Of a DNA stretch of 42,308 nucleotides, positions 223 through 42,246 are shown one piece after another; positions within the stretch are counted from its first letter, which is position 1, and each line of letters starts with the position of its first letter. This DNA comes from Opitutales bacterium (lineage in GTDB: Bacteria > Verrucomicrobiota > Verrucomicrobiia > Opitutales > UBA2995): NCBI GenBank assembly GCA_022824405.1, contig JAJDZZ010000060.1, positions 1 through 42,308 on the forward strand, written 5' to 3'. Made by a program: the position numbers and the translations under genes. A model generated the notes under the pieces. That model ran no database searches and had not been told where the DNA came from. It worked only from the letters and a program-made list of their open reading frames with translations.

Positions 223-306
223 CTTTGTGCCTTTGTGCCTTTGTGCCTTTGTGCCTTTGTGCCTTTGTGCCTTTGTGCCTTTGTGCCTTTGTGCCTTTGT
301 GCCTTT
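223..306 (+). repeat. Octamer tandem repeat (CTTTGTGC, about 10.5 copies)
   Basis: Ten perfect head-to-tail copies of CTTTGTGC span 223-302, followed by a partial CTTT. The array ends four bases before the sulfatase ATG at 311. Because 8 is not a multiple of 3, gain or loss of a unit shifts any reading frame passing through it. The current copy number keeps an upstream ATG at 188 in frame with the sulfatase. A four-unit imperfect version lies at 7689-7721, upstream of the DUF1080 gene. Confidence 0.95.
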
Positions 307-2112: not shown

Positions 2113-2236
2113 ATCGATCACGATCATGATCACGATTAATTTCAGCACCTTTAACCTTTAGCCTTCTTCCTTCATCCTTCTTCCTTTTCTTCCCATCCGT
2201 GTAATCCGTGGTTTCTCCATCTCCCCTTGCAAAGTG
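2113..2236. repeat. Intergenic mosaic repeat block (gap 1874-2313)
   Basis: This block holds the modules CGATCACGATCATGATCACGATT (about 2115-2137), pyrimidine-rich CCTTCTTCC runs, and ATCCGTGTAATCCGTGG (about 2195-2211). Each module also occurs in other gaps of the window (7508-7640, 12699-12709, 25818-25873). No gene is supported here. The remaining bases to 2313 form the leader of the following operon, with a GGAG about 12 bases before its ATG. Confidence 0.7.
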
Positions 2237-6415: not shown

Positions 6416-6450
6416 CCATAACGGGCGAAGAAACCTTTAATCAGTATTCA

Positions 6451-7479
6451 ATGAGCGAAACCCTTAGAATCGGAGTCCTCGGCCTCATCCATGACCACGT
6501 GTGGAGCAACCTGGCAGCGCTGGCCGACTGTGACCGCGCCGAACTGGTGGCGGCCTCGGACCCAAACCTACCACTGACGGCGCGTGTTTCCCGCGAATAC
6601 GGCTGCAGGACCTATTCCACCCATCGGGAACTCCTCGATTCCGAGCAATTGGATGCGGTATACGTGTTCAGCAGCAATGCCGAGGGCGCTGAACTGGCCA
6701 TACGGTCCATGGAACGGAAACTCCACGTCCTGAGTGAGAAACCCATGGCCGCCCGTCTCGATCAGGCCGACCGCATGCTGGCCGCAGCGGCGAAAAACCA
6801 AGTGAAGTTGGTCATTAACTGGCCCTTCGCCTGGTGGCCGCAACTCCGGGTTGCCCTGACCATGGCTAAGGACGGAGCCATCGGGAAACTTTGGGGCGTC
6901 AAATACCGGGCCGCCCACGCCGGACCCAAGGAGTTGGGTTGCTCGGAGTATTTTTGCAACTGGCTCTTCGACCGGGAACTGAACGGCGGCGGCGCCCTGC
7001 TGGACTATTGCGGTTATGGGTGCCTGCTTTCCGCCGCAATGCTGGGTCAACCCGAAAAAGTGACCGGAATCACGGGAGGACAGATCAAGGATTCTCTTGC
7101 CGTGGAAGATAACGCCCTCATTGCCATGACCTATCCCTTTGGCATTGCCACCGCCGAAGCCTCTTGGACCCAGATCGGCAAACTGACCAGTTATACGACT
7201 GCGATCTACGGCACGGAGGGAACGTTACTGGTAGAACCACGATTGGGGGGAAAGCTTTACATGGCCACGTCCGATGACCCCAATGGCCGTGAAATTGCCT
7301 TGCCGGACCAAGAGCCCCGCCTGCGCGATTCAGCCACCCATTTTGTCAGCGTGGTCTCCGATGGGGCTGAACCATGGCTGCTCTGCCGACCCGGTCTGGG
7401 CCGCGACGCCCAGGAAATAATGGAAGCTGGACTGAAATCGTCCCTGCAGGGAAACCACATTTCCCTTCCCCTCGATTAA
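6451..7479 (+). CDS. Gfo/Idh/MocA family oxidoreductase
   Basis: Cytoplasmic 342-residue NAD(P)-dependent dehydrogenase-family protein. The Rossmann glycine motif is the histidine-containing variant GVLGLIHDHVW rather than GxGxxG, a feature of one Gfo/Idh/MocA subgroup. The EKP motif is intact (LSEKPMAARL). The C-terminal domain contains GGGALLDYCGYG. It is last in the four-gene operon that begins at 2314, 35 bases after the DUF3604 gene. Two divergent paralogues in one operon suggest consecutive or reverse oxidation-reduction steps; the substrate is not identifiable. Confidence 0.88.
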   Translation: MSETLRIGVLGLIHDHVWSNLAALADCDRAELVAASDPNLPLTARVSREYGCRTYSTHRELLDSEQLDAVYVFSSNAEGAELAIRSMERKLHVLSEKPMAARLDQADRMLAAAAKNQVKLVINWPFAWWPQLRVALTMAKDGAIGKLWGVKYRAAHAGPKELGCSEYFCNWLFDRELNGGGALLDYCGYGCLLSAAMLGQPEKVTGITGGQIKDSLAVEDNALIAMTYPFGIATAEASWTQIGKLTSYTTAIYGTEGTLLVEPRLGGKLYMATSDDPNGREIALPDQEPRLRDSATHFVSVVSDGAEPWLLCRPGLGRDAQEIMEAGLKSSLQGNHISLPLD

Positions 7480-7499
7480 CCGAATAGCATCCAGTCACC

Positions 7500-7768
7500 C
7501 CATTCCTTATCCGTGTGATCCGTGTAATCCGTGGTCACTCTTCTCTCCACTCCATTACTCCACCACTCCCTCGATCACGATCACGATTAATCTCTGTGCT
7601 CTCTGTGGTTAATCCCCCATCCGTGTAATTCGTGGTTTCAGCCTTTCGCCTTTCGCCTTTTCCCCACTCCCTCACTCCCTTCTTCAACCTTTGTGCCTTT
7701 GTGCCTCTGTGCCTTTGTGCCATCTCGCCTTGGCGAGATCCCATTCCTCATTGGCGCCCTTGGGCGCC
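7500..7768. repeat. Intergenic mosaic repeat block (gap 7480-7824)
   Basis: The richest mosaic in the window. In order: ATCCGTGTGATCCGTGTAATCCGTGG, a CCACTCC run, CGATCACGATCACGATT (7572-7588), CTCTGTGCTCTCTGTGG, a second ATCCGTGTAATTCGTGG, GCCTTTCGCCTTTCGCC, four imperfect TTTGTGCC units (7689-7721), a perfect hairpin ATCTCGCC-TT-GGCGAGAT (7722-7739), ATTCCTCATT, and the hairpin GGCGCCC-TT-GGGCGCC (7753-7768). No gene is supported in it. Confidence 0.85.
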
Positions 7769-7824
7769 TTAGGCAGTTTTGTGTGGCCAAGTCATCTTGG
7801 TGTCCCGAAAATATGAGAATAGAA

Positions 7825-8574
7825 ATGAAAAAGCTGATCGTATTCCTCCTGCTCTTTCTCCCCATCTGGATGGGGGGAAATACCTCCAAAGAAGATCCGT
7901 CCGCGGACGATGGCTGGATTACCTTGTTCAATGGGAAGGACCTTACCGGCTGGGAAGTAAAAACGGACGCCGCCAAAGGCATCTGGACGGTTCGGGACGG
8001 GGTCATCGATTGCCAGCCGCGGCTTCAACCCCGAGGAGACAAGAGCCTGTGGGGAACGAAAAGCTACCGGGATTTCGAGCTCCTGGTGGATTGGCGCATC
8101 AAGGAAAAAAAAGGCATTTACCGGGTGCCGGTGGTGCTGCCGGATGGAAGTTATCAATTGGACGATGAGGGCAACCGGGTTGTGCATCCGCAACCCGGGG
8201 CCGATTCCGGGATTTACCTGCGGGGCACCAACCGGGCCCAGATCAATATCTGGTGCTGGCCCATCGGGTCCGGAGAAGTCTACGCTTACCGAAACAACCA
8301 GAAGGATCCCGTGATCCGCGCCGGAGTTACGCCCAAGGTAAAGGCGGACCATCCGGTGGGGGAATGGAATACGTTCCACATCACCATGAAGGGCGACCGG
8401 CTAACCGTGGCGCTCAATGGCCGGACCGTGCTGGATAACGCCCAATTGCCCGGGGTACCGGATGAAGGTCCCATTGCCCTGCAACACCACGGAGGATACG
8501 ATGAGGAAAAAGATGAATGGAACGGAGCTTCCAGCCTGGTTCAATTTCGCAACATCCGTATCAAACCCCTCTGA
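7825..8574 (+). CDS. DUF1080 protein (3-keto-disaccharide hydrolase-like domain), exported
   Basis: Secreted 249-residue protein with a signal peptide (MKKLIVFLLLFLPIW) followed directly by the DUF1080 lectin-like jelly-roll fold: GWITLFNGKDLTGWEV, IWTVRDGVIDCQP, DSGIYLRGTNRAQI, and the C-terminal IALQHHGG...VQFRNIRIKPL. Members are described as 3-keto-glycoside hydrolases or carbohydrate-binding proteins. Start: ATG at 7825 gives the best signal peptide; an in-frame ATG at 7813 adds four residues. It lies 43 bases before a sulfatase and is probably co-transcribed with it, pointing to shared work on an extracytoplasmic carbohydrate. The frame is open further upstream through the TTTGTGCC repeats, which is probably not meaningful. 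Confidence 0.88.
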   Translation: MKKLIVFLLLFLPIWMGGNTSKEDPSADDGWITLFNGKDLTGWEVKTDAAKGIWTVRDGVIDCQPRLQPRGDKSLWGTKSYRDFELLVDWRIKEKKGIYRVPVVLPDGSYQLDDEGNRVVHPQPGADSGIYLRGTNRAQINIWCWPIGSGEVYAYRNNQKDPVIRAGVTPKVKADHPVGEWNTFHITMKGDRLTVALNGRTVLDNAQLPGVPDEGPIALQHHGGYDEEKDEWNGASSLVQFRNIRIKPL

Positions 8575-10015: not shown

Positions 10016-10219
10016 CCACAAAATGCACAAAAGGCGCAAAATTGAGGTATCGGAAATTACTGAATAAATTTTCGAATTTGGAGTTTTTTAGAACCAAAAT
10101 TTATTAGTAACCCATGACACATTTCAGAGGCTCTCAAATTTGTCATCTTCCTAACCATATCTGCTAACCTATTGATTTCAGATACATTCATTTTGTGTCT
10201 TTTGTGCTTTTTGTGGTTT
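10014..10219. repeat. Inverted pair of ACCACAAAAnGCACAAAAG repeats between convergent genes
   Basis: Arm 10014-10043 and the reverse complement of arm 10190-10219 agree at 27 of 30 bases (core CCACAAAAnGCACAAAAG). The left arm starts inside the stop codon of the sulfatase. The right arm lies inside the 3' end of the minus-strand PLP enzyme gene and encodes its last residues. About 146 bases of AT-rich, gene-free sequence separate them. The pair could form a bidirectional terminator-like stem. Confidence 0.8.
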
Positions 10220-12452: not shown

Positions 12453-12534
12453 CAACCAGCCCTGTCCTGCCGTAGCCTTCACACGAACCAGGATCCGTGG
12501 TCCATTCCTCATTATCGCCCCCGACACCCCTGCC

Positions 12535-12603
12535 TCTCGCAAAGGTCGCCAAGAAACGCCAAGGAATCCGGCTTTGCCGGAGCAAGAGTTAACGGAGGGG
12601 GGA
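12535..12603 (+). repeat. CTCGCAAAGGTCGCCAAG module plus 47-bp repeat copy 2
   Basis: CTCTCGCAAAGGTCGCCAAGAAACGC (about 12536-12560) is a module also seen, diverged, at about 18610-18635, 36153-36172 and 42180-42210. It runs into 12557-12603, which repeats 133-179 with two differences over 47 bases and contains the hairpin TCCGGC-TTT-GCCGGA. Confidence 0.8.
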
Positions 12604-12694
12604 CATTCCTGTCCCCCACCACGCCGTAGACCTCTGGCGAAGGCGGGTCCCTCACTCGAAATACAAGGGGGACAGGAATGTCCCCCCTCCGTTA
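12590..12694. mobile_element. 105-bp element with perfect 28-bp inverted repeats, each containing its own hairpin
   Basis: Arms 12590-12617 and 12667-12694 are perfect 28-bp reverse complements (core GGGGGGACATTCCTGTCCCC). Each arm also folds on itself (GGGGACA..TGTCCCC), so the element is nested. The 49-base centre has no gene. Half of the left flank is shared with position 133-179, where the hairpin arms are absent. This fits a REP/MITE-type structured repeat. Confidence 0.75.
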
Positions 12695-12814
12695 TTTTCG
12701 ATCACGATTTATCTCTGAAATTCTTCTCCCCCATTCCATCACTCCCCCATTCCTAATTGCGCCCTTGGGCGCTTCTCCCCCTCTGTGTTCTCTGTGTCCT
12801 CTGTGGTTTCTTAT
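12695..12814. repeat. Intergenic mosaic repeat block (rest of gap 12453-12814)
   Basis: Contains CGATCACGATT (12699-12709), CCATTCCATCACTCCCCCATTCCTAATT, the hairpin GCGCCC-TT-GGGCGC (12759-12772) and CTCTGTGTTCTCTGTGTCCTCTGTGG (about 12780-12806). The last module sits directly against the 3' end of the minus-strand gene at 12815. No gene is supported here. Confidence 0.75.
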
Positions 12815-18600: not shown

Positions 18601-18781
18601 TTCATGTAACCGTGGGTCGCAAAGCTCGCCAAGAACGCATTGGGGAAGAGAATAGCCACAGGGGACTCAGAGAGCACAGAGAGATCACGACCAAGATTGC
18701 GATTACGATAATCCTTTGTGCCTCAGTGTCTTTTCATTCCTAATTCCTAATTCTTAATTCTTAATTGGCGCCATCGGCGCC
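18601..18781. repeat. Intergenic mosaic repeat block (gap 18441-18916)
   Basis: Contains GTCGCAAAGCTCGCCAAGAACGC, GACTCAGAGAGCACAGAGAG, a diverged CGATTACGAT run, CCTTTGTGCCTCAGTGTC, an ATTCCTA/ATTCTTA array (18736-18766) and the hairpin GGCGCC-ATC-GGCGCC (18767-18781). Bases 18441-18600 are AT-rich and should hold the promoter of the minus-strand cytochrome-c gene; no convincing -35/-10 pair could be fixed. Confidence 0.78.
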
Positions 18782-18810
18782 TTTCCGCATCCAGATCTCA
18801 GGTCGAAAAC

Positions 18811-25739: not shown

Positions 25740-25928
25740 TGTTCAATTCCTCATTGCGCCCCCGGCGCCTGCCTCCCCCATTCCATCTTTCCATCACTCC
25801 ACCACTCCTTGCCTTTCGATCACGATCACGATCACGATTTTTCTCGGTGCTCATCCGTGTAATCCATGGTTTTAGCCTTTTTCTCCCTAATTCCTAATTC
25901 CTCATTCCTAATTGGCGCCGCAGGCGCC
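25740..25928. repeat. Intergenic mosaic repeat block
   Basis: Contains ATTCCTCATT with hairpin GCGCC-CCC-GGCGC (25756-25768), CCATCACTCCACCACTCC, CGATCACGATCACGATCACGATT (about 25818-25840), CATCCGTGTAATCCATGG, an ATTCCTA array (about 25886-25913) and hairpin GGCGCC-GCA-GGCGCC (25914-25928). The module order is close to that of the 7500-7768 block. It ends 25 bases before the 3' end of the minus-strand sulfatase. Confidence 0.82.
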
Positions 25929-31059: not shown

Positions 31060-31127
31060 CTTCCTTCTCCCTCATTCCTCATTCCTAATTCCTAATTCCT
31101 AATTCTTAATTGGCGCTCCCCGGCGCC
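31060..31127. repeat. ATTCCTA array with GGCGC hairpin between convergent genes
   Basis: CCTTCTTCC, then about five ATTCCTA/ATTCTTA units (about 31070-31111), then GGCGC (31112-31116) pairing with GCGCC (31123-31127). It occupies most of the gap between the FAH gene and uxaC, eight bases from the uxaC stop codon. A bidirectional terminator role is possible. Confidence 0.8.
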
Positions 31128-36100: not shown

Positions 36101-36239
36101 GATCCTATCGATCATGATCGATGGAAACGGATGAAGAAATGACTCTCGCAAAAATCGCCAAGAACGCTGAGAGGGAAGCGCCCAAGGGCGCAGGGAATAG
36201 CCACAAAATTCCTAATTCCTAATTGGCGCCCCAGGCGCC
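36101..36239. repeat. Intergenic mosaic repeat block entering a coding region
   Basis: Contains CGATCATGATCGAT, CTCTCGCAAAAATCGCCAAGAACGCTGAGAG, hairpin GCGCCC-AA-GGGCGC (36178-36191), CCACAAAATTCCTAATTCCTAATT and hairpin GGCGCC-CCA-GGCGCC (36225-36239). The ATTCCTAATT and hairpin portion from 36212 is the 3' end of the minus-strand Gfo/Idh/MocA gene and supplies its stop codon. Confidence 0.85.
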
Positions 36240-37351
36240 TTTTGCCTGCCGTCAAAATCGTCCCGTTCGGTTGAGGTCTGGTAGGGAAACTTTACCGATT
36301 TCCCATCCCGCCCGCTACGATAAATCGCGGTAAAGAGTTCGACCGCCTTACGGCCCTCTCGAACGGTCACGCAGGGGTCCCGGTCAGCCAGCACCGCCTC
36401 GATAAACTCGTCGATCTGGAGTTGATGATAATGCTCCATGGGGTTTATCCGGCTGAATCTTTCCTTGTCCTCCTCACGCCACTTTTCCAGGAGTTTCTCT
36501 TCCCCGGGCACGGTCCAGTAATCGTTCAGGGGCGGTTCCTCGATGGCCGCCATTCCTGGAATGAACATTTGTCCGCCATCGGTCTGGACCCCGACCATTG
36601 CCCCGTTCGATCCCAGAACGCTAACTTTGCCGAAGAGAGCGGGATTGAAGGAGTTGCTCACCAGGATATGACCCAGAGCGCCACTCTTGAACCTGATGGA
36701 GGCAACGGCGGTATCCTCCACTTCGATGCCCGAATGGTTCAGATTGTCCCACATGCCGCAAAGTTCATCGACCTCGCCCATAAACCAGAGCAACAGGTCG
36801 AGTTGGTGCACGGCCTGGTTTACCAAGACGCCTCCGCCCTCTCCATCCCAGGTCCCGCGCCAGGCATCGGAGTCGTAATAATCCTGGTCGCGCCAACCCA
36901 GCATCGTGACCATGCCAAGAATGGGATCCCCGATCTTGCCGGACTCGATGGCCTCCTTGACCCGGAGAACCGGCTCGAAAAATCGCCTCTGAGAAATTAC
37001 GCCTATTCGGGATTTTCCCCGCACCGCAGCCTCCATCATGGCGTCACAATGTTCCAACGAAGAAGCAAGCGGCTTTTCAATCAACAGGTGCACACCCGCT
37101 TCCGCCGCCGCGACGGCGGAGTCGATATGAGCCGGATGGGGCGTGCAAATGGTGCAAACCCGCACGCCCGATTCCCTCAGGAAGGTTCCCAGATCGGTGT
37201 AGGCTTCTACCCCATAATCGCTGGCGAAGGCTTTTACTTTGGACGGTGTCCGGCCCAGCACGGCGGTAAAATCACTGTCGGGATTGCGTTGCAACGCCAA
37301 AGCGTGCAAGTGGGCAACCTTGCCGGTACCGATTATGCCAGATTTTAGCAT
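36212..37351 (-). CDS. Gfo/Idh/MocA family oxidoreductase with repeat-derived C-terminus
   Basis: NAD(P)-dependent dehydrogenase-family protein of 379 residues. It has Rossmann motif SGIIGTGKVAHLHALAL, CTPHPAHIDSAVAAAEAG, intact EKP (LIEKPLASSL), and the C-terminal-domain segment GGGVLVNQAVHQLDLLLWFMGEV. A tail domain to about 365 includes EFIEAVLADRDPCVTVREGRKAVELF, the usual family end. The final residues KAPGAPIRN and the stop codon are encoded by the GGCGCC hairpin/ATTCCTA repeat, so the natural end has been overwritten. It lies 45 bases after the zinc dehydrogenase and is likely co-transcribed with it. Confidence 0.9.
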   Translation of the reverse strand: MLKSGIIGTGKVAHLHALALQRNPDSDFTAVLGRTPSKVKAFASDYGVEAYTDLGTFLRESGVRVCTICTPHPAHIDSAVAAAEAGVHLLIEKPLASSLEHCDAMMEAAVRGKSRIGVISQRRFFEPVLRVKEAIESGKIGDPILGMVTMLGWRDQDYYDSDAWRGTWDGEGGGVLVNQAVHQLDLLLWFMGEVDELCGMWDNLNHSGIEVEDTAVASIRFKSGALGHILVSNSFNPALFGKVSVLGSNGAMVGVQTDGGQMFIPGMAAIEEPPLNDYWTVPGEEKLLEKWREEDKERFSRINPMEHYHQLQIDEFIEAVLADRDPCVTVREGRKAVELFTAIYRSGRDGKSVKFPYQTSTERDDFDGRQKAPGAPIRN

Positions 37352-42152: not shown

Positions 42153-42246
42153 GGCGCCGGGGGCGCCAATTAGGAATTGACTCTCGCGAAGACCGCTAAG
42201 GTCGCCAAGAGATGAATTAGAAATTTTAACATCGCCGCTTCGCGGC
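42153..42246. repeat. GGCGCC hairpin and mosaic repeat after sdhB
   Basis: Hairpin GGCGCC-GGG-GGCGCC (42153-42167) is followed by AATTAGGAATT, the reverse orientation of the ATTCCTA module elsewhere. Then come CTCTCGCGAAGACCGCTAAGGTCGCCAAGAG and a small hairpin GCCGC-TTC-GCGGC (42234-42246). No gene is supported from 42124 to the window end. Confidence 0.78.

Follow-up and report, generated by a model that had tools for sequence, protein, structure and literature searches.

Small dispersed repeats (SDRs) of Nostoc were reportedly described by Elhai et al. in 2008 as hairpins of 21–27 nt embedded in heptamer arrays. REPINs are doublets of REP sequences which form hairpins and are moved by RAYT transposases (PMC3116915). 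Heptameric SSRs of Xanthomonas and Nostoc have been put down to slippage (PMC4692102), and TAACTGA repeats, heptamers shared across phyla by Beggiatoaceae, Cyanobacteria and Bacteroidetes, are recorded with no mechanism (PMC4679880).

The intergenic blocks studied here represent a short intergenic palindromic repeat family that crosses phyla, in a form which is specific to the genus, scrambled and hyper-expanded; in architecture they resemble small dispersed palindromic repeats of the REPIN and SDR type. Like REPINs (PMC3116915), they are short inverted repeats between genes whose ends are conserved and whose loop varies, with compensatory changes, many copies per genome and lineage-specific sequence. 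Inverted conserved ends around a variable loop were found in other lineages, and in the window's genus the polarity was kept and the arms were not matched. Unlike REPINs, the arms are composed of tandem 7-mer units at 8–10-nt spacing, the ends are CCAC..GTGG and not GTAG, the units occur in many phyla and a Y1 transposase is not required. CCAC..GTGG ends were present in 56/56 hairpins, a count which, with these ends required by the search pattern, excludes a GTAG head only directly at that point. The likeness to SDRs lies in a GGCGCC/GCGCGC hairpin that follows ATTCCTA arrays and keeps its pairing as the stem varies, and in the nesting seen in related repeats; compensatory stem changes gave GGCGCC, GGCGCGCC, GCGCGC and GCGCCC. 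The repeats described here differ from SDRs in being non-cyanobacterial, in the fixed place of the hairpin after ATTCCTA and in a larger vocabulary with polarity. Integron attC sites end in RYYYAAC..GTTRRRY; the hairpin ends here vary by inspection (AACCAC..GTGGTT, TCACCAC..GTGGTGA). Degenerate 7-nt intergenic arrays distributed sporadically across phyla recall the heptameric SSRs and TAACTGA repeats, but those are single words, for which hairpin grammar, phrase order and inward polarity go unreported in the available text of the two papers (PMC4692102, PMC4679880). The unit grammar and the inward purine polarity appear to be new, as no description of either was found in the openly accessible literature.

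The window, the whole 42,308-nt stretch of DNA analysed, is contig C54 of a 3.39-Mb genome (96% complete, 92 contigs) and encodes sulfatases, PSCyt and GFO_IDH_MocA proteins, a gene complement that would fit a Verrucomicrobiota/Planctomycetota-like host. Its repeat features are listed in Table 1. The original prediction had described a shared intergenic vocabulary of degenerate modules in eight stretches; modules were present in 8/8 of these, and the pieces at 223–302 and 12493–12563 were additional to them.

Table 1. Coordinates and composition of the repeat features of the window
Position	Strand	Composition	Remark
223..302	+	Tandem array, ten CTTTGTGC units	Upstream of sulfatase gene
2113..2236	+	CGATCACGATCATGATCACGATTA, TTTAGCC/TTCATCC units, ATCCGTGTAATCCGTGGTT	Block
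7500..7768	+	ATCCGTG x3 (7509-7534), CACTCCA, CGATCACGATCACGATTA (7572), CTCTGTG x2 (7592, 7601), ATCCGTG (7619), TTTCGCC units; 3' part, CTTTGTGC array 7689-7720 and CTCGCC hairpin 7724-7739; end, ATTCCTCATT + GGCGCC hairpin at 7743-7768	Block under study
12493..12563	.	ATCCGTG, ATTCCTCATT, purine-strand array CGCAAAGGTCGCCAAGAAACGCCAAG	Left, purine side of intergene
12590..12694	.	Perfect inverted repeat (28 nt) around a 49-nt loop (TAACGGAGGGGGGACATTCCTGTCCCCC)	MITE-like insert mid-block
12695..12814	+	CGATCACGATT, CACTCCC units, ATTCCTAATT + GCGCCC hairpin, CTCTGTG x3 ending GTGG	Pyrimidine (right) side
18601..18781	.	Left, purine-strand words CGCAAAG/CGCCAAG, CACAGAG; right, pyrimidine-strand words CTTTGTGC, ATTCCTA array, GGCGCC hairpin	Block
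25740..25928	+	ATTCCTCATT, CACTCCA, CGATCACGATCACGATCACGATT, ATCCGTGTAATCCATGG, ATTCCTA array, GGCGCC hairpin	Block
31060..31127	+	ATTCCTA array (five units) + GGCGCT..GGCGCC hairpin	
36101..36239	.	Left, purine-strand words GGCTGAA, CGCCAAG, CACAAAA; right, ATTCCTA + GGCGCC hairpin	Block
42153..42246	-	GGCGCC hairpin, AATTAGGAAT, CGCTAAGGTCGCCAAGA, purine orientation	At window end

Several near-identical copies of the array at 223..302 were found in the sister genome G001, where the phrase at 12725–12808 was also found again at up to 92%. The MITE-like insert at 12590..12694 has a related copy in L256. Another MITE-like structure, whose 34-nt inverted repeat is perfect and encloses a loop of 64 nt (AAAGGGGTCAAACGTAGAAAATAGAATTTCCCTT), was seen at 1883–2014, in the same intergene as the block at 2113–2236. 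Comparison of L246 1740–1868 (G001:C171) with L253 17978 revealed a 127-nt element with inverted ends GCCCGCATGTCTCA and an apparent TA target duplication; it is missing from the orthologous site in the window's genome and has relatives in several other intergenes. This is an IS630/mariner-like MITE, separate from the word blocks. A separate RAYT-like repeat with a GTAG-type head, REPIN-like CTGTAGGAGGGGGTTTATCCCCC...GGGGGATAAACCCCCTCCTACAG, was observed in the same genus (L151 5706–6379, L241 about 6950–7909).

Module counts in the window were compared with Markov-1 simulations. CGATCACGAT was counted 7 times (0.10 expected), ATTCCTAATT 11 times (0.37), TTTGTGCC 16 times (1.7), GGCGCC..GGCGCC 5 times (0.06) and ATCCGTGTAATCCGTGG twice (0.00), most modules being one to two orders of magnitude above simulation. 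The single units CTCTGTG (7 against 2.7) and TCGCCAAG (7 against 1.6) were not significant in the window, and both stood out when counted as tandem units. Nearly all copies were intergenic, although intergenic DNA makes up 12% of the window. As predicted, genes were hardly entered: the repeats reach no further than the closing codons, which word arrays supply in two ORFs (36212–36239, 10191–10215), and the final 28 nt of the block at 36101..36239 are the 3' end of the GFO_IDH_MocA ORF 36212–37351. Block turnover can therefore alter protein C termini.

The genome was sampled over ~1.24 Mb (~37%; the window plus 40 and 20 stretches) and G001, of the same genus, over ~0.44 Mb, with gene calls from a simple in-house caller. 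ATTCCTAATT was intergenic in 73 cases and intragenic in 3 in the first genome sample (intergenic DNA, 12%), and ATCCGTGTAATCCGTGG had 70 exact copies genome-wide against 0 for the reversed control. ATTCCTMATTCCTMATT had 472 copies in the window's genome, 394 in G001 and none in 16 further genomes from the family and order, and ATTCCTA is thus a genus-level expansion. One contig terminates exactly within the phrase ATCCGTGTAATCCGTGG (G000:C35:107175–107191); assembly contigs break at repeats and all copy numbers are therefore lower bounds. ATTCCTA preceded the hairpin 54 times and followed it 0 times, TTCAGCC preceded ATTCCTA 15 times against 1, and CTTTGCG preceded GATCAC 13 times against 1, which bears out the predicted partial conservation of module order; both orientations occur, as had also been stated. 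The genome-wide intergenic vocabulary held, with modules by the hundred and strongly intergenic in the 3.39-Mb genome and its sister species, and the first judgement that this is not a simple IS remnant was supported.

A single degenerate 7-mer, CRCRRAK/MTYYGYG, recurring at intervals of 8–10 nt, accounts with its variants for most of the modules. The tandem 7-mers of the genus at this spacing (CTCTGTG, ATCCGTG, CTTTGTG, CTTTGCG, CTTGGCG and TTTTGTG) all lie close to MTYYGYG, the complement of CRCRRAK. Among 114 foreign loci, ascertained by the one word ATCCGTG, tandem units other than that word were found in 36, against 5 for reversed units. The pattern (CTYYGYGN)x3, which the grammar predicts, was present in 111/289 genomes from the phylum, with 363 matches in the window's genome and a reversed control at or near zero in nearly all. 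It also matched 13 of 24 genomes of other phyla chosen as carriers of ATCCGTGTAATCCGTGG (Acidobacteriota, Chloroflexota, Aminicenantes, Proteobacteria and others), with up to 112 matches and controls of ≤2. The preferred unit variant differs genome by genome among the matches listed. An exact 17-mer scan matched >12 phyla, with isolate genomes (Bacteroides fragilis and Rudaea, for example) among the hits, so that the stated occurrence of the same phrases in several phyla was supported. The original prediction was right on the vocabulary; it missed the single grammar, the inward polarity, the hairpin form elsewhere and the turnover between sister species. Spread by plasmids or phages was rejected: plasmid carriage was limited to 8 plasmid records, all Bacteroides/Phocaeicola, and matches to phages were weak.

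In other phyla the 17-mer is one arm of a hairpin of 60–130 nt, CCACGGATTACACGGATnnnCACGGAT-loop-ATCCGTGnnnATCCGTGTnATCCGTGG, each arm consisting of 2–4 or more copies of the degenerate 7-mer every 8–10 nt. Arm pairs pointed inward rather than outward at a ratio of 90:15. The closing pair just outside CCAC/GTGG covaried in 46/56 hairpins (21.6 expected), and the unit spacers of the two arms were not mirrored. Pairing is thus kept, yet neither arm is a plain duplicate of its partner, and the unmirrored spacers led to the rejection of a fold-back origin in which one arm is copied to make the second.

The hairpins of other phyla lay at a median of 23 nt past the upstream stop codon and in genus g20 0/12 were in divergent intergenes, which would suit structured-RNA or 3'-end elements kept by selection for termination or mRNA protection. 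Three of three g20 hairpins within aligned stretches were retained at orthologous sites; in two the arms were kept while loop and flanks had diverged, as such a role would predict, and the third stretch was nearly identical throughout. Not every lineage, therefore, turns over its hairpins. Blocks in the window's genus are also denser in convergent intergenes, but divergent promoter regions are occupied as well and the change between sister species is almost complete. An intrinsic terminator is a GC-rich hairpin followed by a T run, whereas here, on either strand, the sequence is rich in T ahead of the hairpin and rich in A behind it, with no 3' T tract, and no Rfam family matched above gathering score. 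The absence of a T tract and the turnover both speak against the termination system suggested by the original prediction. Selection for a 3'-end function is unlikely as the general explanation; in hairpin-keeping lineages such as g20 a 3'-end role is possible.

Hairpin lengths were discrete by lineage, with 64–65 nt in most g20 copies and 92–98 nt in most Bacteroides copies, and near-identical Bacteroides hairpins of 92–93 nt with conserved loops were found at unrelated sites. The Bacteroides orthologues L395 and L407 have arms that are one complete 9-nt unit apart in length. A pair of closely related Bacteroides genomes had two hairpins in common that were essentially identical at their sites; at one site a CACAGAG hairpin in one genome corresponded to a CACAGAT hairpin in the other, with a TGA/TAA change of the upstream stop codon. 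Nested hairpins were seen in L076 4215–4343 and L357 5640–5786, the inner one inverted between two near-identical genomes. Bacteroides hairpins are recombining, dispersing units. A predicted gene of B. fragilis Q1F2 is flanked by two CACAGAG hairpins (L356 431–1430), and a related Bacteroides genome has a single hairpin at this place (L392 about 1500–1600), an arrangement that reads as cassette-like gain or loss at hairpins. G180 has a short family hairpin within a larger, nearly identical repeat of many copies (L300–L314), as if captured by an insertion sequence; these identical copies lie inside the larger repeat and consequently give no element borders. L396 in G342 was considered as a clean empty site and rejected, as it proved to be an orthologous diverged copy (L415).

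The discrete lengths, the near-identical loops at unrelated sites, the covarying closing pair and the nesting in Bacteroides are what REPIN-like non-autonomous elements would show, with whole hairpins moved in trans by a putative transposase and the window blocks as nested, decayed copies; inverted ends, a variable spacer and compensatory changes are also found in REPINs (PMC3116915). However, PF01797 (Y1/RAYT) was absent from G144, G180 and G245, three hairpin-bearing genomes of genus g27, despite 15–100 grammar matches, and RAYT/Y1 was rejected as the required mover. Many Y1-rich genomes were without grammar matches, the GTAG-type head is absent and the arms are class-unmatched in the window's genus. 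Nor was a target duplication identified; the comparisons yielded no pair of occupied and empty sites for a word block. Mobility of the REPIN kind is a possible, if doubtful, source of the window blocks.

Within the window's genus the purine strand runs 5' to 3' from each flanking gene toward the middle of the intergene. Intergenes with purine-strand arrays on the left and pyrimidine-strand arrays on the right numbered 68 against 6 (39 against 3 in the window's genome and 29 against 3 in G001), and this polarity was alike in convergent, divergent and both codirectional intergenes. Purine skew of the left minus the right half, calculated with no word list, was +0.108 ± 0.014 in the window's genome and +0.120 ± 0.023 in G001, compared with +0.030 ± 0.012 in the foreign loci, +0.045 ± 0.020 in g20 and +0.010 ± 0.027 in G180. 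Ribosome-binding sites or terminator T runs would shift this skew in the opposite direction. Array classes on the left and right matched 25 times against 26.1 expected by chance. The arrays of the two sides are not class-matched, and the halves of an intergene were thus built independently under one geometric rule; nested matched hairpins were rejected as the source of the window blocks on the same count. Between the halves, as connecting sequence, lie heptamer arrays peculiar to the genus (ATTCCTA, TTCAGCC) and the short GGCGCC/GCGCGC hairpin, which comes after ATTCCTA.

Copying between intergenes was extensive: 675 pairs share ≥50 nt at ≥80% (449 intergenes, 165 involved) and length-matched coding fragments gave 0 such pairs. 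An 81% copy of window positions 18625–18794 occupies an entire intergene in L150. Purine- or pyrimidine-rich copies keep polarity (376:117), whereas composition-neutral, MITE-like repeats do not (121:108). At the sister-species level, nearly all of 23 orthologous intergenes were replaced between the window's genome and G001, the flanking genes being 85–93% identical and aligning to within a few bases of the blocks. The intergene at 7478–7776, which holds the block under study, measures 299 nt, whereas the corresponding flanking genes of G001 enclose 122 nt of unrelated sequence, and in place of the intergene at 1876–2209 (334 nt) G001 has a different 651-nt sequence. At 6418–6444 there are 25 nt against 319 in G001 and at position 10145 there are 0 nt against 240.

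The original prediction offered slippage or template copying as the origin. The template-copied character stands, given the 675 pairs against none in coding DNA, and slippage as the main origin does not. Polymerase slippage on short intergenic sequences is the explanation given for heptamer over-representation in earlier work (PMC4692102), and it agrees with tandem units of 6–9 nt and with the change in unit number between L395 and L407. As sole cause it is largely refuted, and very unlikely, since identical 17-mers occur in >12 phyla, copying between intergenes extends to multi-word phrases and entire blocks, and polarity is kept.

The best explanation overall, a tentative one, is that the blocks, a hyper-expanded form of the hairpin family, are selfish or neutral DNA accreted by copying. 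The DNA was most likely accreted by repair-coupled copying or recombination, a mechanism we infer. A break or gap in an intergene would expose 3' ends, each of which could anneal through a word to an array elsewhere; the annealed ends would be extended, gaining purine-strand words, and the two extended ends would then be joined. In word-poor lineages the same geometry would persist as simple hairpins able to spread as intact 60–130-nt units. If ends are extended and then joined, purine polarity should be inward, the sides should lack class matching, target duplications should be absent, spacers should be unmirrored and the flanking genes should be left exactly intact. Counting against this reading, no break-repair gene could be tied to the repeats. 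In Bacteroides the near-identical whole hairpins at unrelated sites resemble the movement of elements more than the extension of ends. Polarity without class matching could also arise by recombination between old hairpins, and end extension and whole-hairpin mobility may both operate. It seems quite unlikely that both 3' ends of an intergenic break receive purine-strand words, with telomere-like strand polarity, from an end-extension activity dedicated to this task before they are joined, and that the same activity, inherited or transferred across >12 phyla, makes the CRCRRAK hairpins. Copying of an RNA template by a retron- or telomerase-like reverse transcriptase would add one strand to 3' ends and so give inward purine polarity; RVT_1 was missing from the 96%-complete genome of the window and from 10/18 other genomes tested, about half of the hairpin-rich genomes, and this form of templating was rejected as highly improbable.

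Accretion by copying, if right, would mean that intergenic DNA can be wholly rebuilt between sister species while the genes stay put, and that much of the unexplained repeat DNA between genes in many bacterial phyla rests on a single degenerate unit grammar. Many spurious predicted proteins would then probably stem from the same unit grammar. The inward purine rule provides a concrete, testable signature of how repeat DNA is made.
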